DNA from: Roseburia intestinalis L1-82
GTDB lineage: Bacteria > Bacillota > Clostridia > Lachnospirales > Lachnospiraceae
Length of the DNA stretch: 64,000 nt
Assembly (NCBI RefSeq): GCF_900537995.1
Contig: NZ_LR027880.1
Span: forward strand, 3,356,001 to 3,420,000
Direction of reading: 5' to 3'
Positions 50,747 to 60,875 of the stretch are shown piece by piece. The stretch's first letter is position 1. Every line of letters begins with the position of its first letter. The translations under genes and the position numbers were made by a program. Under the pieces are notes generated by a model that saw only the letters and a program-made list of their open reading frames with translations, was not told where the DNA came from and ran no database searches.

Positions 50747-50985
50747 GCTGCACTTCAGTCCGCAGTGCACGTCCGAAAAATCAGAGATTTTCCGGACTGA
50801 CGGGCTTTCGCCCTATCAACGAAGCAAACAATAAAAAAGTGCCTGCAAGCAGTCATTTTTTTATCATTTGGCTGCACTCCAGTCCGCAGTGCATGTCCGA
50901 AAAATCAGAGATTTTCCGGACTGACGGGCTTTCGCCCTATCAACGAAGCAAACAATAAAAAAGTGCCTGCAAGCAGTCATTTTTT
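50747..50985. repeat. Tandem repeat, two ~115-bp copies at a 124-bp period
   Basis: Copy 1 starts at 50747 and copy 2 at 50871. They match over about 115 bp with two substitutions. Each copy contains internal hairpins (GTCCGAAAAATC / GATTTTCCGGAC and GGGCTTTCGCCC). It does not encode a credible protein. It looks like a dispersed intergenic repeat of the genome that has duplicated locally. Confidence 0.85.
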
Positions 50986-51001
50986 ATTGTTCACTTCGTT
51001 G
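50941..51001. repeat. Long hairpin at the end of the tandem repeat
   Basis: CAACGAAG, AAACAATAAAAAA pairs with TTTTTTATTGTT, CTTCGTTG across a 17-nt centre that itself contains CTGC/GCAG. About 20 of 22 arm positions pair. The right arm is absent from the first repeat copy. It separates the divergent GNAT and sigma-factor transcription units and could act as a bidirectional terminator or mark a small mobile repeat. Confidence 0.7.
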
Positions 51002-51059
51002 GCACTGCTCAATGCTTACGCACATTATACCATACCTTTTTGATGTTTTGCATTGATTT

Positions 51060-51090
51060 TGAAACTTTTTGTGGCTATGCTATATCTAAT
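51060..51090 (+). promoter_or_regulatory. Candidate ECF-type promoter of the sigma-factor operon
   Basis: TGAAACTTTTT from 51060 fits the TGAAAC -35 shared by many ECF sigma factors. TATCTAAT lies at 51083-51090, with a 17-bp spacer. It is 49 bp upstream of the sigma-factor start and would allow autoregulation. No good sigma-A promoter was seen in the same gap. Confidence 0.45.
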
Positions 51091-51138
51091 AGTCAGATGA
51101 TTCGAAAGAATCAAATATTTGCAAAGGAGGATCTGATC

Positions 51139-51648
51139 TTGAAATTCTTTTCCGGAAAAGAAAAAAAACATACAGCAGAATCTAATGATGATCTCATCGA
51201 ACGATTGCTGCTTGAGAATTACAACCGCTACTATCATCTTGCATACAGCTATGTACATAATCCCGACGATGCCAGTGACATCGTACAAAACGGTGCTTAT
51301 CTGGCGATCAAAAACAGTGCTTCCCTAAGGCAGCCGGAATATGCGGCGACCTGGATTTACCGCATCATGTTAAATGAGATTTTTCATCATTTAAAGCGGC
51401 CGGATACCATTTCTTACGAGGATTCACTGATCGCAGAGGGAAAACCGGACCAGTATCAGGACTTAGATCTTAGAACTGCGCTCGATTCTTTGTCCCCGGA
51501 GGATAAGGCGATCGTGGAACTTCGGTATTTCGAGGACTTAAAAATCGAAGATATCGCCCGCGTCTTAAATGAAAATGTCAATACCATAAAAAGCCGTCTG
51601 TACCGCAGTATGCAGAAGTTAAAACTGAAAATGGAGGTAACCGAATGA
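51139..51648 (+). CDS. ECF sigma factor (SigV-like)
   Basis: 169 residues from a TTG at 51139, chosen because AGGAGG lies eight bases upstream; the frame is open to 51040. Region 2 (YYHLAYSYVHNPDDASDIVQ, TWIYRIMLNE) melts the promoter. Region 4 (LDSLSPEDKAIVELRYFEDL, IEDIARVLNENVNTIKSRLY) contacts the -35. It overlaps the next gene by ATGA, the usual sigma/anti-sigma coupling. The partner type (RsiV-like) is what makes it SigV-like; the two proteins alone cannot fix the subgroup. Confidence 0.92.
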   Translation: MKFFSGKEKKHTAESNDDLIERLLLENYNRYYHLAYSYVHNPDDASDIVQNGAYLAIKNSASLRQPEYAATWIYRIMLNEIFHHLKRPDTISYEDSLIAEGKPDQYQDLDLRTALDSLSPEDKAIVELRYFEDLKIEDIARVLNENVNTIKSRLYRSMQKLKLKMEVTE

Positions 51649-52553
51649 ACACCAATGATTTTTATGAATTAAAAAAATCCTATGACACCTCGCAAATGCC
51701 TGAAAAAGAGGTCATAAAAATGAAAGAAAAAATGCATCAGGCGAAAGCCGAGAAGAAGAACAAACACAATAAAACCATTATCACAAGAATCTGGGTTGGC
51801 GCTGCCGCAGCGATCGCAGCGTTTGTCATCCTGCCAAATACTTCACCGAGTGTCGCCTATGCGATGGAACAGATCCCACTGCTTGGAAATTTGATCGAGG
51901 TCGTCACATTCCGCGATTACCAGTACAGCAGCGACAGAAACAACGCCGATGTCAATGTTCCACAACTGGTACCGGAAACTGTCGCTTCCACTGAAAAAAC
52001 AACGGAAGACCCGGTTGGGGAAAATTTAAAGAAATCAACCGATGAGATCAATGCGGAGATTGAAAAGATCAGCGACAGCCTGATCGCAGAGTTCAAACAG
52101 AACATGAACAACGAAGGTTATCAGGATATCATGATCAAACATGAGGTCATCAACACAACTGACGACTATTTTACCTTAAAACTAATGTGTTATCAGGCTG
52201 CCGGAAGCGGTTATGAGATGGATTATTATTACACGATTGATTTAAAGACCGGGGAACGCCTTGCGTTAAAAGATCTTTTTAAAGAGGGATCTGACTATAT
52301 CACTCCGATCAGTGAAAACATCAAATCCCAGATGCGCGGGCAGATGGATGCCGATGAAAATGTCTCCTACTGGCTGGATGATACGGAAGTTCCTGAATGG
52401 AACTTTACCTCCATTAACGATGACACTTCCTTCTATATTAATGCTGACGGAAATCTCGTCATCAGCTTCAACGAGGGCGATGTCGGTCCGATGTCTATGG
52501 GTGTTGTGGAATTTACGATCCCGCACGATGTGATCGCCGATATTTTAAAATAA
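51645..52553 (+). CDS. RsiV-like anti-sigma factor (DUF4179/DUF3298)
   Basis: 302 residues. A ~45-residue cytoplasmic part that would hold the sigma factor is followed by one membrane helix (about 47-66, RIWVGAAAAIAAFVILPNTS). The extracytoplasmic region is next: a DUF4179-like start (SVAYAMEQIPLLGNLIEVVT), then a DUF3298-like C-terminus (YYTIDLKTGERLALKDLFKE, SMGVVEFTIPHDVIADIL). In Bacillus, RsiV binds lysozyme directly through this domain and is then cleaved to free SigV. Lysozyme as the signal here is inference from that homology. It is coupled to the sigma gene by a 4-bp overlap. Confidence 0.88.
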   Translation: MNTNDFYELKKSYDTSQMPEKEVIKMKEKMHQAKAEKKNKHNKTIITRIWVGAAAAIAAFVILPNTSPSVAYAMEQIPLLGNLIEVVTFRDYQYSSDRNNADVNVPQLVPETVASTEKTTEDPVGENLKKSTDEINAEIEKISDSLIAEFKQNMNNEGYQDIMIKHEVINTTDDYFTLKLMCYQAAGSGYEMDYYYTIDLKTGERLALKDLFKEGSDYITPISENIKSQMRGQMDADENVSYWLDDTEVPEWNFTSINDDTSFYINADGNLVISFNEGDVGPMSMGVVEFTIPHDVIADILK

Positions 52554-52582
52554 GAAATGTCTATGCAGTAAAGGATCCTGGC

Positions 52583-53935
52583 ATGGTATTTAGCAGTCTC
52601 AACTTTATTTTTATTTTTTTGCCATTATTTCTGTTTGCCTATTATGTCACACCTGCTGCTTTCAGAAACAGTACGCTCTTTGCAGGGAGCATCCTGTTTT
52701 ATGCAGCCGGAGTGATCAAACAGCCATATGCACTGTTTCTGTTAATGGTTCTGACCTATCTCAATTATGTGTTCGGAATCTGCCTTTATCAGATACACAA
52801 TCCAAGAAAAAAGAAACTCTTTTTGACAAAAGTTATTTTTTTCGATTTTTTATGGTTGTTTTTGTTTAAATATTCCAGACATTTATCTCTGCCGCTCGGA
52901 ATCAGTTTTTATACGTTCCAGCTGACTGCATATCTTTTTGATATCTATTACGGACGTATTTTACCGGAACGGGATTTTGTGACATTCGGTACTTACATCA
53001 GCATGTTCCCAAAATTAATTTCCGGACCAATTACCCCGTATGAGATGCTGCGCAGGCAGCTTCACAGCGCAAGACGCTTTCTGCCCGAAAATCTGGCGGA
53101 GGGTATGAAACTTTTTATCCGGGGACTTGGCTTAAAAGCGATTCTGGCGAATCAGTTTGGCAGTCTGTGGGCAAATGTTGGCACGATCGGATATGAAAGT
53201 ATCTCCACGCCGCTTGCATGGCTTGGAATCTACGCATATTCTTTCCAGATTTACTTTGATTTTTATGGTTATTCCCTGATGGCAGCAGGTCTGGGCAGAA
53301 TGCTTGGTTTTAAGCTTCCCATAAACTTTATGCACCCCTATCTCTCCACAAGCATGACAGAATTCTGGCGGCGCTGGCATATTACACTTGGACAATGGTT
53401 TCAGACCTACATCTATATTCCACTTGGCGGCAACCGCACAGGTACCTGCAAATGGATCCGCAACCTGCTTGTCGTGTGGATACTTACCGGAATCTGGCAT
53501 GGCACAGAATTTCATTTTATTCTGTGGGGATTTTCCCTGTTCGTCATTGTATTGACAGAAAAACTGCTGTTGAAAAAATTGACGGACCGATACGCGCTGG
53601 CCGGACATCTTTATATGGCAGTTCTGATCCCATTGTCGTGGATGCTCTTTGGAATCAGTGATCCCGGCAGTATCGAAGTCTACACCCGGAAATTATTTCC
53701 ATTTTTTTCCGCCGATGATGCCATTATTTATGTGAATGATTTCTGGAAAAATTTAAATGATTTCCGCTTTATCATCCCTGCCGGCTTCCTTTTTTCTACA
53801 AGGTTTCCGGTCCGCTTTTTAAAAAAAATCAGGGGCTCTGTGCCAGAAATTTTTGTCTATCTGGCAATTTTCTGGGCTTCTGTTTACTGTATTTACGTTG
53901 GCTCTAATGACCCATTTTTATATTTCAGATTTTAA
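52583..53935 (+). CDS. MBOAT-family membrane O-acyltransferase (PatA/AlgI/DltB type)
   Basis: 450 residues with about 11 membrane segments. Family motifs are PLGISFYTFQLTAYLFDIYY, FPKLISGPITPY and FWRRWHITLGQW (His266), and the invariant active-site His306 in LTGIWHGTEFHFILWG. MBOAT proteins move acetyl groups across the membrane onto cell-wall or extracellular polymers. Its partner is the SGNH protein encoded 12 bp downstream. A PatA-like role in peptidoglycan O-acetylation is inferred from that pairing and from the anti-sigma upstream. AAAGGATC precedes the ATG. Confidence 0.9.
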   Translation: MVFSSLNFIFIFLPLFLFAYYVTPAAFRNSTLFAGSILFYAAGVIKQPYALFLLMVLTYLNYVFGICLYQIHNPRKKKLFLTKVIFFDFLWLFLFKYSRHLSLPLGISFYTFQLTAYLFDIYYGRILPERDFVTFGTYISMFPKLISGPITPYEMLRRQLHSARRFLPENLAEGMKLFIRGLGLKAILANQFGSLWANVGTIGYESISTPLAWLGIYAYSFQIYFDFYGYSLMAAGLGRMLGFKLPINFMHPYLSTSMTEFWRRWHITLGQWFQTYIYIPLGGNRTGTCKWIRNLLVVWILTGIWHGTEFHFILWGFSLFVIVLTEKLLLKKLTDRYALAGHLYMAVLIPLSWMLFGISDPGSIEVYTRKLFPFFSADDAIIYVNDFWKNLNDFRFIIPAGFLFSTRFPVRFLKKIRGSVPEIFVYLAIFWASVYCIYVGSNDPFLYFRF

Positions 53936-53947
53936 CGAAGGAACACT

Positions 53948-54787
53948 ATGCGAAAAAAAATATCTGCCATATTGTTTTATTTTTTCTTTTTGATAAGCTG
54001 CCTTCTGATTCCACTCATTTACTTATATGTAACGTTAAACATAAATGCAGCCAAAAATACGTCCTTGTCCGTGTCTTCTATCTCCGCCGCACAAAAACAG
54101 GACACCACGACACCATCGGACACTTCCGGTACGCCATCTGACAATACAGACCGGCAGGATATCCCGGACACAGAAGTTCCGATGACAGAAATGACCACTG
54201 TTGATGCAGATTATTTCGATGACGCTTTAATGATCGGTGATTCCCGCACTGTCGGATTAAAAGAATATGGTACGTTGGGCAATGCCACCTTTTATTGTGA
54301 TTCGGGTCTCAGTATCTATGATCTGGAAAACAAAAAAATTATGGTGGACGGTATCGGAAAGGTCAGTATCTCTGATCTTTTAGCCAGCCATACCTATCAT
54401 AAAATATATCTGATGCTCGGCATTAATGAACTTGGCTACGATGTCACACAGACATTTGAAAAATATGCGTCGTTTGTAAATTTTCTGCAAACCATGCAGC
54501 CGGATGCGATCATTTATGTTGAAGCAAATCTTCATGTGACTGCACAGCGCTCAGACTCGGATAAGACATTCAATAATGCCAATATCAACGCCTTTAATCA
54601 AAAAATTTCGACATTAGCCGATCAACGGACCATTTATTATCTGGACATCAATGAACTTTTTGACGATGCAAACGGCAATCTCGGCACACAGTACAGCAAT
54701 GATAATGCGCATCCCCTCGGAAAATACTACGCAGTATGGTGTGACTGGTTAATGGAGCACGCCGTTGTCCGTGACGGGAAATCATAA
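53948..54787 (+). CDS. Membrane-anchored SGNH/GDSL acyl-esterase or transferase
   Basis: 279 residues. An N-terminal membrane helix (about 7-30) is followed by a Ser/Thr/Asp-rich linker (about 38-85) and an extracytoplasmic SGNH domain. The catalytic Ser99 is in LMIGDSRTVGL, Asn160 in LGINELG, and Asp252/His255 in NDNAHPLG, so the triad is complete. Such domains attach or remove acetyl groups on sugars. Pairing with the MBOAT gene resembles PatB with PatA. GAAGGA precedes the ATG. It is the last gene of the sigma-factor operon; a new promoter lies 5 bp after it. Confidence 0.88.
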   Translation: MRKKISAILFYFFFLISCLLIPLIYLYVTLNINAAKNTSLSVSSISAAQKQDTTTPSDTSGTPSDNTDRQDIPDTEVPMTEMTTVDADYFDDALMIGDSRTVGLKEYGTLGNATFYCDSGLSIYDLENKKIMVDGIGKVSISDLLASHTYHKIYLMLGINELGYDVTQTFEKYASFVNFLQTMQPDAIIYVEANLHVTAQRSDSDKTFNNANINAFNQKISTLADQRTIYYLDINELFDDANGNLGTQYSNDNAHPLGKYYAVWCDWLMEHAVVRDGKS

Positions 54788-54791
54788 CCCC

Positions 54792-54820
54792 TTGCACCGG
54801 TTTTAAAATTTCGTTATAAT
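54792..54820 (+). promoter_or_regulatory. Promoter of the DUF4317 gene
   Basis: TTGCAC (54792-54797), a 17-bp spacer and a perfect TATAAT (54815-54820), 81 bp upstream of the ATG. It indicates a separate transcription unit from the sigma-factor operon. Confidence 0.8.
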
Positions 54821-54901: not shown

Positions 54902-56158
54902 ATGAACAAAAAAGATATTTTAGAATTAAAACGGCGTTTTAAGAAAGATGCCTGCACTTTTACAAGACTGTGCGGCTGCTATGTGGATGCCGACCACAAT
55001 AAGGTAACTTCTTTCGGGGAGACATTTTTAAATCTGGAAGATGAGGAATTTTACAAATACTTAGAGATTGCAAAAAAAATAATGTCCGGTACGATTGGAA
55101 ATAACCTTTTAGAGCTGGAATTTCCGACTGCGGAGGAAGCTGCCGGCGGCAGACAGCAGTTTTTGATGGGACTGCGCGAGAGTGCCTTAAAAAATGATGA
55201 TCTGATGGATGCATTTTATGATCTTGTCATTGACAGCTACGACTATGTCGGAAACTATCTGATCCTTGTATTCCACGATGCCTACGACGTTATGACAAAA
55301 ACTTCTGATAATAATAAATTAGACGAGTCCGAGGAAGTTTACGAGTATCTGCTCTGCGCGATCTGCCCGGTCAACCTGACCAAACCGGGACTTGGCTACC
55401 GTGAGGATGAAAACCGTATCGGACCGCGTATCCGCGACTGGGTCGTTGGAGCTCCGGACACCGGATTTGTTTTCCCTGCTTTTACCGACCGGAGCACTGA
55501 TATCCACTCTGTCATGTTTTACACCAGAGACACCAAGACACCGCACTCCGAATTTATGGAATCCGGTCTTGGCTGTGGCTCTAAATTTACAGCTACCGAA
55601 CAGAAACTTACGTTCCAGAGCATTGTAAAAGAAGTCATCGGGGAAGATGATGACGAAAGCGATGCCATTTTCATGGATATCCAGGACAACTTAAATGACC
55701 TGATCCCGGTTGCTTTAGAAGATGAACCAGAACCGGAACCGGTTCCTGTCACAAAGAGCACAATCTCTTCCGTACTCGCAGAGAGCGGTGTGACCGAAGA
55801 ACAGGCAGCTGTGATCGAACAGACCTATGAAAATGTATTTGGAGAAGAAGTCCCGGTCGCAGAACATTTAGTAGATCCGAAACTGGTGGAGGCAAATGCC
55901 AGACGCAAAGAAAAATTAGAGTTGGTACAGCAGGTTGAAAATTTGAAACAGCAGTTAGAAGAAACACGCACTCTTCCGGTAGAAGAATCTGACGGGGATG
56001 ACGTCCCGGCAGTCAAGACCTACGACGTCATTCTGCGTGTCAAACCGGAAAAAGTCGACCAGATCCACTCCCAGGTCATCGATGGCAGAAAATGCCTTGT
56101 CATCCCGATGGACGAGGATGAACATGCTGCCGTTAACGGCGTGAACACGACGATCTGA
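54902..56158 (+). CDS. DUF4317 protein
   Basis: 418 residues from the ATG at 54902 (MNKKDILELKRRFKKDACTF) with GGAGATA upstream; an ATG at 54869 has no ribosome site. It begins with the family's typical TRLCGCYVDADHNKV. It has no signal or membrane segment. A Glu/Pro-rich linker (DEPEPEPVPV) near 285 and a coiled-coil segment (NARRKEKLELVQQVENLKQQ) near 345 precede the C-terminal domain. The family is widespread in Lachnospiraceae; its function is not known to me. Confidence 0.85.
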   Translation: MNKKDILELKRRFKKDACTFTRLCGCYVDADHNKVTSFGETFLNLEDEEFYKYLEIAKKIMSGTIGNNLLELEFPTAEEAAGGRQQFLMGLRESALKNDDLMDAFYDLVIDSYDYVGNYLILVFHDAYDVMTKTSDNNKLDESEEVYEYLLCAICPVNLTKPGLGYREDENRIGPRIRDWVVGAPDTGFVFPAFTDRSTDIHSVMFYTRDTKTPHSEFMESGLGCGSKFTATEQKLTFQSIVKEVIGEDDDESDAIFMDIQDNLNDLIPVALEDEPEPEPVPVTKSTISSVLAESGVTEEQAAVIEQTYENVFGEEVPVAEHLVDPKLVEANARRKEKLELVQQVENLKQQLEETRTLPVEESDGDDVPAVKTYDVILRVKPEKVDQIHSQVIDGRKCLVIPMDEDEHAAVNGVNTTI

Positions 56159-57089: not shown

Positions 57090-60000
57090 TTATTTAACTT
57101 TTACTTTGAATGTTACTTTCTTACCATCTGCTGTCTTAGCTGTGATCTTTACAGTTCCTGCTTTCTTAGCTGTGATCTTACCGCTCTTGCTGATGGTTGC
57201 TACTTTCTTATTTGAAGTAGTCCATTTGATCTTCTGGTTTCCGGAAGTAACTTTCTTGCCCTTTGCATCTGTTACAGTTGCTTTTACAGTTGCTTTCTTA
57301 CCTTCCTTTAAGGTATAGGTCTTACCTGTTACAACCTTCTTGCCTACTTTTAATACAACTTTCTTGGTTGCCTGTTTTACAGTTACCTTAACAGTTGCTT
57401 TCTTGCCATTTGCTGTCTTAACTGTGATGGTTGCTTTACCATTTCCTTTTGCAACGATCTTACCGTTCTTATCTACAGTTGCAACTTTCTTGTTAGAAGA
57501 AGACCATGTAACAGTCTTATCTGTTGTGTTTGTCGGATTTACTGTTGCTTTTACTGTCTTAGATGCACCGATAGAAGTTAAAGTTACTTTGCTTGCGCTC
57601 AGTTTTACAGAATCAGCTTTTACTGTTGAAACAGTTACTGCGATTGTTGCTGTCTTGCCGTTTGCTGTCTTAGCGGTAACATTTGCAGTTCCTTCTGCGA
57701 TTGCATAAACCACACCATCAGATGTAACTTTTGCTACTGCTGTGTTGTCGGAAGACCATGTAACATTCTTATCTGCTGCATTTGCAGGAGCTACTGTTGC
57801 GCTGACCTGTCTGGATTCACCAACATTGATCTTTAATGCAGTTGTGTTTACAATTACACCTGTTGCTGCTACTGCATTTACAGTTAATGTTCCATCTACT
57901 ACTGATGTTACATCGTAGTTTTTCTGATCTTCTACAGTTGCACGGATCTTATATGTACCAACTGCTAAGTTCTTTGTTGACTGAACAGCTTTTCCATCTG
58001 TACCTAATACTGCATAAGTAACTTTTGCAGTATCTTTGCCAACTAAACCTTTTACGGTTCCGTCAAGTGCTGCTTCCTGACCCTGCTCGATCGTTACATC
58101 TTTTGCAGTTACGGAAAGAGGAGCTTTTGCAACATTTACATTTGCTTTTAATGTTACCTTTGTATCTGTTGTGTAGTTTGGATCAACAACTGAAACAGCT
58201 ACCTCTTTGCTTGTATAGCTTCCAGCGTCTGCTACTGTGTTATCAACAAATGCAAAATCTAACGCTGCATCAATCTCTGTGTCATTGTAAATGATCTTAG
58301 CATCGCTTAACTTCTGACCATAAGTAGCATCCTCAACTTTAAGATTCTTGGAATTTAATCCGGTGATCTCTTTCTGAGCTACTTTGATATCACCGATCTC
58401 ATAGCTTGTTGTCTCTTTTCCGGCTGTAACCTCTAAGTAGATTCTGTATGTACCAGCATCTAAGTTACCAAGGCTTTCGGAAATTGTTCTTCCACTCTTG
58501 AACAGGAAAGCTTCATCTTCATTTACGGATTTCTTTGTGATGTCTTTTGCTTCACCTAAAGACGGTTTATTTGCTACTGTAGTAACCTGTTTGTAATATA
58601 CACGATAAGCGGAAACATCATCTGCAGTAACCTTTGCGATAGCCTTTACATCTGCTGTAGCACCATAAGTAGCTTCCGTTTTGCTTAAGCCTAAACCTGA
58701 AGTAGTAGTATCAACTGTAATCTTAGTAGCCTCAACCGTAACTTTGTTTGTTGATTTTACCAGTTTGCTGTATGCTTCAACCTGAGCATCTGTTGCATCC
58801 GGAAGGAAATCTTTTACAGATCCTTTTACATCTGCTGTGATCTCACAATAGTATGTACCTGGGATGTCAGCAAATGTACTTGTCGTATAAGTATCAGATG
58901 TTGCACTTTTAATTGCTACATACTTATTCGTTTTCTCATTCAGTTTATACCACTGATAAGAAACAGTATAATTAGCAGTTCCAAGTTTCTTTTCATTGTA
59001 AGATGCTTTCAGCGTAAGCGTATCTTTATCTTTAAATTTATCTGCTGTTAAATTTTCAGATTTATTTTCTGCCTTAACATCTGTTAATACAGGCTGTGTG
59101 ATAGAAACGCCGCTTAAGGATACATATTTATATCCATTTGCATCTGCACCGCTTAATGTGTATACATTTTTTGCGCTGTCTTTCAGAGAATATTTTACCT
59201 GATAATTTGCAAGTGTACCGATGTTTGGTGTATCATCAGAGATTGTCTGCCATGCGCCATCTACTTTTTTCTGAATTTCGATGTCAAATTCAGTATCATT
59301 TTTTCCAGCTAAGATTTCACTTAATTTTACTCCGGCAGCATAACTGCTCTCCAACTTACCAGTTACCGCAGAAGCATCACGATTGATCACTGCTCTGTTG
59401 ATTACAACATCGTATGTCTTCTCAACTGTTTTCGTATCCCATTTTGTTTTTCCATCAACCGGTGTAAGACCAGCATCATCACTTAATGTGAAAACAATTG
59501 TCAAACCGTTTTTGATTGTCTGGGAATTTTCTGTATTGGTTTTCAAAGAAGCTACAGTTGAAGTCTTATCTACACCGCCAACAGAATCAATTGTTTCTGA
59601 TGTATCTTTAATGCTGTAAGTACCAATTGTGGTCTTTTTGTTTAATGCAGCCACATAATCTTTGTAGTAATCTTCAAGATCTCCAGCTCCCTCATAAGTA
59701 ATCTCAGGAAGTTTGGAATCAAATGAAATGCTGTCTGCATTGATTCCCTCTTTTACAGCAACTTTGATCTCGCCGACTTTCTGGGTTCCGTCTGTTGTTG
59801 TTGCGGTAATTGTTACCTCTTTTCCAGCCTCTGTTTTAGAAACTGCTGTGATAACAGCCTCATTGTCACCAGTTGCTGTAACTTTTACTTTGCTGGAATC
59901 ACTGGATGTCCATGTAACCTTTGCATTGGAAACAGTATCACTTCCTGATCCTGCTGCAACTTTTGCTGTCAAAGCTTTCTTATCGGTGGTTGCCATCTCT

Positions 60001-60875
60001 ACTGTAGTTGAAATAGGACCGTTTTCATCCTCAATGGAAACACCTGTAGCAAGCTGAACAACTTTAACAGATACTGTTTTTTCATATGTCTTATCTGTCT
60101 CTACTGCAGCAGTATCACTGTTATCAATGGTATATACACCGTCTGTTGCTGTGAATGTAAAGACAATCTCTTTTGTAGCTGTTGTAACTGCCTCATCTTT
60201 CACAGTCCACTTACCATATGCTTCATCTAACTTATTTGCTGTCTCAAGTGCTGCTGTTACTTCCGGAGCAGCTGTAGTATTTAAAGCAGCTCCATCTTTA
60301 TTGCTAATGGTAGTAACTTCCGGCACATGAAGTCTGTTTGTTGCGATAGATGCTGCTTCGATAGTAAATGCATCAAGCGCTTTTTCTGCATAATATTCAT
60401 TTTTCTCGCTTGCATGTGTGAACACTGCTTTTACTTTGTACGTCGTATCTTTCTCTGGTGCAAATACAAATGTACCATCTGCACTGGTTGCAATTGTTGT
60501 GTCAACTGCAGATTTTGTTGCAATCAACTCATAGCTTTTTACTGTAAGAGTACCATTAGTTAATTTATCCCCTTTGACAGTTGTTGTTACAGTAACTGTC
60601 GCACCTGCTTTTACTGTAGTTGCACTTGTTTTTGTTTCTACAGTAACATCGGAAGAAGCATCCTTCTGTACACTCTTTGTCACGTCTTCTGAATCTTCTG
60701 TTACCTCAACCTCTGCTGCTGTCTCAACCTCTGCTGTTGTTTCAACGTTTAAAGCTTCTGTTGCCGCATCCCCGGCTTCAACATTTGCTACCGGCTCTGC
60801 AAATGCTGTAACGCCGTTACCAGTTACCGCTAACGTTGCAGCCATCATTAAGGCTGTTACTTGTTTTGCCCTCAT
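57090..60875 (-). CDS. Large secreted Ig-like (Big_2) repeat protein
   Basis: 1,261 residues with a Sec signal (MRAKQVTALMMAATLAVTGN, likely cut after AFA near 26). A Glu/Thr/Val-rich acidic stretch follows, then many Ig-like beta domains. The last three before the C-terminus are Big_2-type units with ATVAPANAADKNVTWSSDN, VNPTNTTDKTVTWSSSNKKV and KIKWTTSNKKVATISKSG. The C-terminus is Lys-rich and has no LPXTG or SLH motif, so attachment is unclear; charge-based wall binding is possible. It could be an adhesin or surface-layer-type protein. GTGAGG precedes the ATG. The tyrosine recombinase gene lies directly upstream. Confidence 0.85.
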   Translation of the reverse strand: MRAKQVTALMMAATLAVTGNGVTAFAEPVANVEAGDAATEALNVETTAEVETAAEVEVTEDSEDVTKSVQKDASSDVTVETKTSATTVKAGATVTVTTTVKGDKLTNGTLTVKSYELIATKSAVDTTIATSADGTFVFAPEKDTTYKVKAVFTHASEKNEYYAEKALDAFTIEAASIATNRLHVPEVTTISNKDGAALNTTAAPEVTAALETANKLDEAYGKWTVKDEAVTTATKEIVFTFTATDGVYTIDNSDTAAVETDKTYEKTVSVKVVQLATGVSIEDENGPISTTVEMATTDKKALTAKVAAGSGSDTVSNAKVTWTSSDSSKVKVTATGDNEAVITAVSKTEAGKEVTITATTTDGTQKVGEIKVAVKEGINADSISFDSKLPEITYEGAGDLEDYYKDYVAALNKKTTIGTYSIKDTSETIDSVGGVDKTSTVASLKTNTENSQTIKNGLTIVFTLSDDAGLTPVDGKTKWDTKTVEKTYDVVINRAVINRDASAVTGKLESSYAAGVKLSEILAGKNDTEFDIEIQKKVDGAWQTISDDTPNIGTLANYQVKYSLKDSAKNVYTLSGADANGYKYVSLSGVSITQPVLTDVKAENKSENLTADKFKDKDTLTLKASYNEKKLGTANYTVSYQWYKLNEKTNKYVAIKSATSDTYTTSTFADIPGTYYCEITADVKGSVKDFLPDATDAQVEAYSKLVKSTNKVTVEATKITVDTTTSGLGLSKTEATYGATADVKAIAKVTADDVSAYRVYYKQVTTVANKPSLGEAKDITKKSVNEDEAFLFKSGRTISESLGNLDAGTYRIYLEVTAGKETTSYEIGDIKVAQKEITGLNSKNLKVEDATYGQKLSDAKIIYNDTEIDAALDFAFVDNTVADAGSYTSKEVAVSVVDPNYTTDTKVTLKANVNVAKAPLSVTAKDVTIEQGQEAALDGTVKGLVGKDTAKVTYAVLGTDGKAVQSTKNLAVGTYKIRATVEDQKNYDVTSVVDGTLTVNAVAATGVIVNTTALKINVGESRQVSATVAPANAADKNVTWSSDNTAVAKVTSDGVVYAIAEGTANVTAKTANGKTATIAVTVSTVKADSVKLSASKVTLTSIGASKTVKATVNPTNTTDKTVTWSSSNKKVATVDKNGKIVAKGNGKATITVKTANGKKATVKVTVKQATKKVVLKVGKKVVTGKTYTLKEGKKATVKATVTDAKGKKVTSGNQKIKWTTSNKKVATISKSGKITAKKAGTVKITAKTADGKKVTFKVKVK

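Follow-up and report, generated by a model that had tools for sequence, protein, structure and literature searches.

In Bacillus subtilis, the operon sigV-rsiV-oatA (PMC5014341) places a sigma factor and its anti-sigma ahead of OatA, an acyltransferase in which an AT3 domain is fused to an SGNH domain. The csfV-rsiV-pdaV/lbpA system of Clostridioides difficile likewise joins an RsiV-type switch to a wall-modifying effector in the operon, one that deacetylates N-acetylglucosamine. Separate MBOAT and SGNH proteins O-acetylate peptidoglycan in Gram-negative bacteria (PatA/PatB) and modify the secondary wall polysaccharide in Bacillus (PatA1/PatB1), and an MBOAT fold also serves D-alanylation by DltB/DltD/DltX. 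The region C1:3356001-3420000 of the single-contig 4.49 Mb genome of Roseburia intestinalis L1-82 (64,000 nt, the whole of which is called the window) carries four genes on the + strand at 51139-54787 of the window, encoding an extracytoplasmic function (ECF) sigma factor, an RsiV-like anti-sigma, an MBOAT acyltransferase, and an SGNH protein. This is a variant of the sigV-rsiV-oatA arrangement with a split MBOAT–SGNH enzyme in oatA's place. We lean toward the reading that the sigV/rsiV-like pair switches on, from its own promoter, an MBOAT–SGNH pair that would likely O-acylate cell-wall glycan. No description of a sigV-rsiV-MBOAT-SGNH arrangement was found in the literature covered, which mostly excludes subscription papers.

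As in B. subtilis, sigma and anti-sigma are followed by the acyltransferase in one operon, the RsiV fold and its AxA motif are present, and the autoregulation from its own promoter seen there is predicted here; unlike in B. subtilis, the MBOAT and SGNH proteins are separate rather than a fused AT3–SGNH OatA, and the face of RsiV that contacts lysozyme is largely replaced. The original prediction, drawn from the letters of the window, had put the pair in OatA's place, and the pair does occupy the oatA position of the B. subtilis operon. The gene order and spacing it gave are borne out by the positions of the reading frames and the gap sequences: the sigma and anti-sigma genes overlap by 4 bp (51645-51648), and gaps of 29 bp and 12 bp separate the anti-sigma gene from the MBOAT gene and the MBOAT gene from the SGNH gene. 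The features of the operon are as follows.

51060..51090, + strand: sigmaV-type promoter, TGAAACTTTT-N15-TCTAAT, predicted to be autoregulatory
51139..51648, + strand: ECF sigma factor, SigV-like, with a TTG start and Pfam r2/r4 domains
51645..52553, + strand: RsiV-like membrane anti-sigma, with a transmembrane helix at about 44-64 (from hydropathy), site-1 motif A71-Y72-A73, and a DUF3298 ectodomain
52583..53935, + strand: MBOAT acyltransferase, with His266 and His306 (PF03062, 72.3 bits)
53915..53932, + strand: C-terminal hexapeptide FLYFRF of the MBOAT protein, an FxYxxF acyl-shuttle motif with Tyr447 as the predicted acceptor
53948..54787, + strand: membrane-anchored SGNH protein, with a transmembrane helix and Ser99, Asn160, Asp252, and His255 (PF13472, 51.9 bits)

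The best NCBIfam model for the sigma factor is SigV (NF053879, 146.8 bits, short of the 190-bit equivalog threshold), and the anti-sigma scores 231.5 bits against the RsiV model NF052658, whose equivalog cut-off is 250; because both fall under these cut-offs, the two proteins are named "-like". The sigma gene most likely starts at TTG 51139, behind AAAGGAGG at 51123-51130, since a relative (L002) begins with the same MKFFS. Upstream, the promoter at 51060-51090 is the sole exact match to TGAAACTTTT-N15-TCTAAT in the genome and scores 30.2 bits on a matrix built from 37 distinct sites. A site of the same form precedes sigV in 41 of 53 loci of relatives, one of which (L098) is probably spurious and two of which (L003 and L138) are the same contig. 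From this site SigV is predicted to autoregulate. Both the promoter and the FLYFRF peptide were absent from the original prediction and were found here.

The ectodomain of the anti-sigma matches PF11738 at 83.7 bits, and the protein matches the RsiV–lysozyme structure 5jen at 118 bits by sequence. Its predicted model (mean predicted local distance difference test, pLDDT, 73) matches the fold of 5jen with a template-modelling score of 0.86-0.88 on the target and 0.61 on the query. The signal-peptidase motif is kept, as A71-Y72-A73 (AYA), at the site of A66, the position of site-1 cleavage in B. subtilis RsiV (PMC6066255), and the genome holds one M50 protease.

The MBOAT protein resembles the DltB structures 6bug and 8jem; it reaches 142.5 bits against the NCBIfam DltB model, whose cut-off is 375. 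F445, Y447, and F450 of its C-terminal peptide are invariant in 16 MBOAT sequences (window included). FxYxxF is the shuttle motif of MBOAT–SGNH pairs, and PatA acetylates itself on it (PMC12148441). In the adjacent SGNH protein, Ser99, Asp252, and His255 are invariant in an alignment of 26 sequences (window included); in a second alignment of 35 sequences, Asp252 and His255 again show no variation, and at least 90% of the sequences have Ser99. Its predicted model (pLDDT 87.4) consists of one N-terminal helix, 2-40, and an SGNH domain. The residues named in the original prediction, MBOAT His306 and the SGNH triad, are present and are invariant in the alignments of 16 and 26 sequences, respectively. 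As read from the sequence, the locus has the features that define an MBOAT–SGNH acyltransferase, namely the MBOAT His, the C-terminal FxYxxF, and next to it an SGNH protein whose triad is intact. The three MBOATs of the genome all end in FLYFxF and none exceeds the DltB cut-off. One of the others belongs to a second MBOAT–SGNH pair at G000:C1:1356712-1358985 (L184), and seven of the nine MBOATs placed in a tree as the L184 type, L184 included, form one branch. MBOATs 45-50% identical to that of the window occur in many members of the genus.

Like PatA/PatB, it consists of a separate MBOAT and SGNH protein with a C-terminal FxYxxF and a Ser-Asp-His triad; unlike PatA/PatB, it sits in a likely Gram-positive host, stands behind a sigmaV-type switch, lacks an Ape1-like third gene in the operon, and has an SGNH protein for which no sequence relationship to PatB was detected. 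The 21 profile matches of the SGNH protein (E 0.1; whether the library holds PatB was not checked) include no chain of PatB, PatB1, or OatA, and neither do the 50 of 1581 fold matches listed for its model. The pair shares with Bacillus PatA1/PatB1 an MBOAT and SGNH protein in a Gram-positive organism. PatB1 belongs to the DHHW enzymes defined by the blocks KDS, DxRY, and TDHHW (PMC9487903), which alignment shows to be absent from the window SGNH protein; it has GDSR, GINE, and DNAH instead. The label "PatA/PatB-like" of the original prediction therefore holds for an intact MBOAT–SGNH pair with a shuttle motif and is otherwise too specific. With the Dlt system, the pair has in common the MBOAT fold and acyl-Tyr shuttle chemistry, and dlt is under sigmaV elsewhere; it differs in carrying the shuttle peptide on the MBOAT protein itself and in having no dltA or dltC adjacent.

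The window enzyme is an MBOAT protein, not AT3, and so lies outside the OatA type, an AT3 fused to SGNH. No such fusion is found in the genome, in which nine AT3 matches lie in frames of 180-377 aa, too short for one. Among the matches listed for 40 genomes and read by eye, no OatA-type AT3 lies beside a full-length RsiV. Weak DUF3298 matches (G024:C56 and G122:C60) lie near short AT3 genes.

In the proposed mechanism, an outside ligand, probably a muramidase, would bind the RsiV-like ectodomain. By analogy with B. subtilis and C. difficile, signal peptidase would then cleave the anti-sigma at its conserved AxA motif, and release would be completed by the one M50 protease of the genome. The freed sigma factor would read the promoter at 51060, a site seen as sequence, and would raise all four genes. 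The MBOAT protein would take an acyl group (likely acetyl) from acyl-CoA and load it onto Tyr447 of FLYFRF, from which the SGNH serine would pass it to the wall, most likely to C6 of muramic acid if the chemistry resembles that of PatAB. The parts of this scheme differ in strength. That the pair would O-acylate the wall follows from its family; that peptidoglycan is the polymer and a muramidase the signal, we infer; that host lysozyme is the signal is weaker still. In related bacteria, the pairing of sigma factor and acyltransferase would likely protect against wall-cutting enzymes.

The same link recurs in other genomes. Within the family, the SGNH protein was searched in 299 genomes and matched in 164 of them, and RsiV was searched in 150 genomes (50 with a match) and 56 more (30 with a match), the latter taken from 78 further SGNH-positive genomes. 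Among the matches listed, SGNH and RsiV lie within 3 kb on one strand in 8 of 206 family genomes (window, G065, G115, G230, G277, G306, G331, and G334), five of which have the complete four-gene cluster. The order is sigV-rsiV-MBOAT-SGNH in the window and G230, with a 276 bp gap before the MBOAT gene in G230, and MBOAT-SGNH-sigV-rsiV in G115, G065, and G334. For the class, 291 genomes were sampled. RsiV matched at 1e-40 in 32 of them, the window among them; of the remaining 31, 29 were mapped, G561 was fetched in addition, and G581 was left out. Nineteen of these genomes were fetched wider, together with one region of a genus member. In this sample G368 and G474, which belong to two further families, carry all four genes as one cluster. 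Apart from the window, the complete clusters are the loci L178, L112, L114, and L182 in the family and L330 and L331 in other families, so that the cluster is found in six other genera, in two gene orders, and in three families. The co-occurrence of the four families in Lachnospiraceae, proposed as a check by the original prediction, is thus positive, though patchy, and most mapped RsiV loci lack the link to the pair.

Partial forms also occur. The SGNH gene stands immediately before sigV-rsiV in L180, L181, and L329; in L179 the distance is 459 bp. Listed by genome, G453, G600, and G561 carry SGNH with no MBOAT next to it, and in G600 and G561 a DUF4358 gene lies between SGNH and sigV; listed by locus, one DUF4358 gene separates SGNH from sigV-rsiV in L332 and L336. 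DUF4358 proteins adjoin SGNH, sigV, or rsiV genes in L332, L336, and L180. At L332:4268-5608 (+), SigV-like and RsiV-like regions share one 446-aa frame, an apparent sigma/anti-sigma fusion or possibly an assembly artefact. In a genus member, sigV-rsiV is immediately preceded by L337:4295-5680 (+), which matches polysaccharide deacetylase weakly (22.2 bits against a cut-off of 23.1) and recalls pdaV of C. difficile.

For INDEPENDENCE, a quickly built tree with 103 RsiV rows requires nine changes of the linked state, at least five of them forced by well-supported branches; one with 79 MBOATs, built in the same quick way, requires six. On one MBOAT branch (support 94), 9 of 20 members are linked or have the promoter versus 2 of 59 elsewhere (7 of 18 without L330 and L331, which were fetched because they are linked), a branch chosen after the tree was seen and in which the genus MBOATs were unscored for the promoter.

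Strong sites of the sigmaV type also precede four further MBOAT–SGNH pairs next to which no sigV was seen. Sites of at least 14 bits occur upstream of 5 of 66 MBOAT genes versus 3 of 712 control genes from the same loci (p 1.7e-4). At 8, 10, 12, 14, 16, and 20 bits, the last threshold being added afterwards, the MBOAT counts are 9, 7, 5, 5, 4, and 4, and the control counts 8, 6, 5, 3, 3, and 1. Three of 69 MBOAT genes (L182, L224, and L231), with fewer than 200 bases upstream, were dropped, and the 66 include the linked L112, L114, and L178. L112 is the one linked cluster among the five; the other four (G047, G339, G340, and G119) have no sigV seen adjacent, the contig of G340 ending 210 bp upstream of the MBOAT gene and G047 being viewed over 3 kb only. 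A near-full RsiV lies on another contig in G339 and G119, a split RsiV is present in G340, and G047 has none. Within the R. intestinalis genome, a second sigmaV target was considered, a site with one mismatch (G000:C1:3438313-3438343, - strand) ahead of the genes for a small lipoprotein and a serpin. It stands only as a lead because allowing up to two mismatches gives 8 genome matches versus 19 for a reversed control pattern. At this locus (L259, G000:C1 near 3438313), a polysaccharide deacetylase gene lies just upstream of the site.

Two features mark the probable limits of the operon.

50941..51001, strand not assigned: inverted repeat with 22-nt arms (50941-50962 and 50980-51001), 91% complementary, with A/T runs
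54792..54820, + strand: TATAAT preceded by a weak -35, between the SGNH and DUF4317 genes, read by eye and absent from the scan list

The inverted repeat is likely a boundary or terminator upstream of the operon, and its first base, 50941, is where the original prediction began the feature; that position lies upstream of the promoter. A 115-nt direct repeat (50747-50861 and 50871-50985, 98% identical) lies with it just upstream of the promoter. As judged from the TATAAT, the operon probably ends before 54792; the next gene downstream, DUF4317, starts at 54902 (54869 by the longest frame). Farther on, 57090-60875 (-) encodes a protein of 1261 aa that contains Big_2 repeats and is likely exposed at the surface.

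Several findings weigh against a sigmaV-controlled pair that acylates cell-wall glycan. The SigV and RsiV models both score below their cut-offs, and 57 of 66 MBOAT upstream regions score below 8 bits. The best fold matches of the SGNH model are esterases, the linked cluster L114 adjoins nucleotide-sugar genes, and the lysozyme contacts are mostly replaced. Furthermore, the pair lies beside the best RsiV match in none of the 24 other RsiV-positive genomes of the genus (60 sampled, 25 positive including the window), with flanks mostly of 6 kb (only 1.5 kb for G152 and for G153), contig ends shortening some of them, and a few weaker second matches unmapped; the link is therefore patchy. In the nearest genus relatives, whose RsiV is 70% identical, rsiV is followed by a spermidine-synthase-like gene, with DUF4317 further on, so either the lineage of the window acquired the pair or the others lost it. 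The closest genus MBOAT (62%) is beside typA in G200, which has no RsiV match.

A serious competing explanation, which we rate somewhat below an even chance, concerns the signal: the RsiV-like sensor may be tuned to a muramidase other than animal c-type lysozyme (a bacterial or phage enzyme or an autolysin) or to some other wall signal. Out of the 16 residues by which B. subtilis RsiV contacts lysozyme (PMC5014341, Table 2), only 2 are identical in the window, despite 38% overall identity. This is the lowest count among 103 RsiV rows (window included), tied with three others, the other 102 keeping from 2 to 11. Most contacts are also replaced in the nearest relatives (L157 and L138, 3 of 16), and the other complete clusters keep 4 (L178), 5 (L114), 7 (L182 and L331), or 8 (L112 and L330). 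The equivalent of Y261 is Ser in the window, and Y261A strongly reduced sigmaV activity in B. subtilis (PMC5014341). On the other side, the fold, the site-1 motif, and the equivalents of P259 and S168 are retained (that of S169 is Gly, with Ser before it), and single contacts may be replaceable: in that study, lysozyme binding was weakened by S169W, not by P259A or Y261A alone. Host lysozyme is therefore no more than a possible signal; the RsiV-type switch of the original prediction stands as to the fold match with 5jen and the AxA site, and the binding face whose retention it asked about is largely replaced. The idea that the pair goes with Ser at Y261 was rejected, since L182 and L178 are linked with Tyr and L111 is unlinked with Ser.

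Less probable, and in our view rather unlikely, is that the pair acylates another surface polymer, such as secondary wall polysaccharide, teichoic acid, or capsule, with the switch answering general envelope damage. MBOAT–SGNH pairs do modify alginate, cellulose, and secondary wall polysaccharide (PMC12148441), dlt D-alanylation is also under sigmaV in B. subtilis and C. difficile (PMC5014341, PMC9044953), and two further MBOATs are present in the genome. Moreover, nucleotidyl-transferase and sugar-dehydratase genes adjoin the L114 cluster on the other strand, phosphoglucomutase-type genes lie on the same side of it, and an AMP-binding enzyme is encoded about 5 kb downstream; these neighbours would fit peptidoglycan no better than they fit a polysaccharide or a different acyl group. 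These points are countered by the lack of the PatB1/DHHW blocks in the SGNH protein, by DltB scores below the cut-off for every MBOAT of the genome, and by the window's operon, in whose reading frames no polysaccharide gene is listed. The stretch downstream of the linked cluster, L114:2-4757 (-), encodes the AMP-binding enzyme and a 1114-aa protein in which a PLP (pyridoxal phosphate) decarboxylase-like part is joined to a transglutaminase-like part.

It is improbable that the SGNH protein is a de-O-acylating esterase and that the operon removes groups. Its nearest solved folds are acetylhydrolases and sialate O-acetylesterase, and SGNH precedes sigV-rsiV without an adjoining MBOAT in L179, L181, and L329; however, the window SGNH gene lies 12 bp behind an MBOAT gene whose product carries the acyl-shuttle peptide, and an MBOAT neighbour is found at 28 of the 30 best-scoring mapped SGNH loci (window included; the exceptions are L085 and L097). 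That the genes are chance neighbours under independent regulation is highly improbable, for although near relatives carry sigV-rsiV without the pair, the gaps are 29 and 12 bp and the four families are contiguous in six other genera, also in another order.

Beyond this locus, it may be, and we offer this tentatively as somewhat less probable than its opposite, that gut Clostridia have more than once assembled a split peptidoglycan O-acetyltransferase controlled by sigmaV, which would be the Gram-positive counterpart of PatAB and replace OatA. They would have done so by putting MBOAT–SGNH pairs under sensors of the RsiV type, either in trans or in several gene orders, with the sensor faces retuned to different muramidases. 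The linkage provides a natural regulatory handle on the MBOAT–SGNH family, and the divergent faces of RsiV prompt one to ask what muramidases are in fact sensed by commensals. If the pair acetylates peptidoglycan under a muramidase-responsive switch, it would offer a testable route by which gut commensals live with lysozyme.

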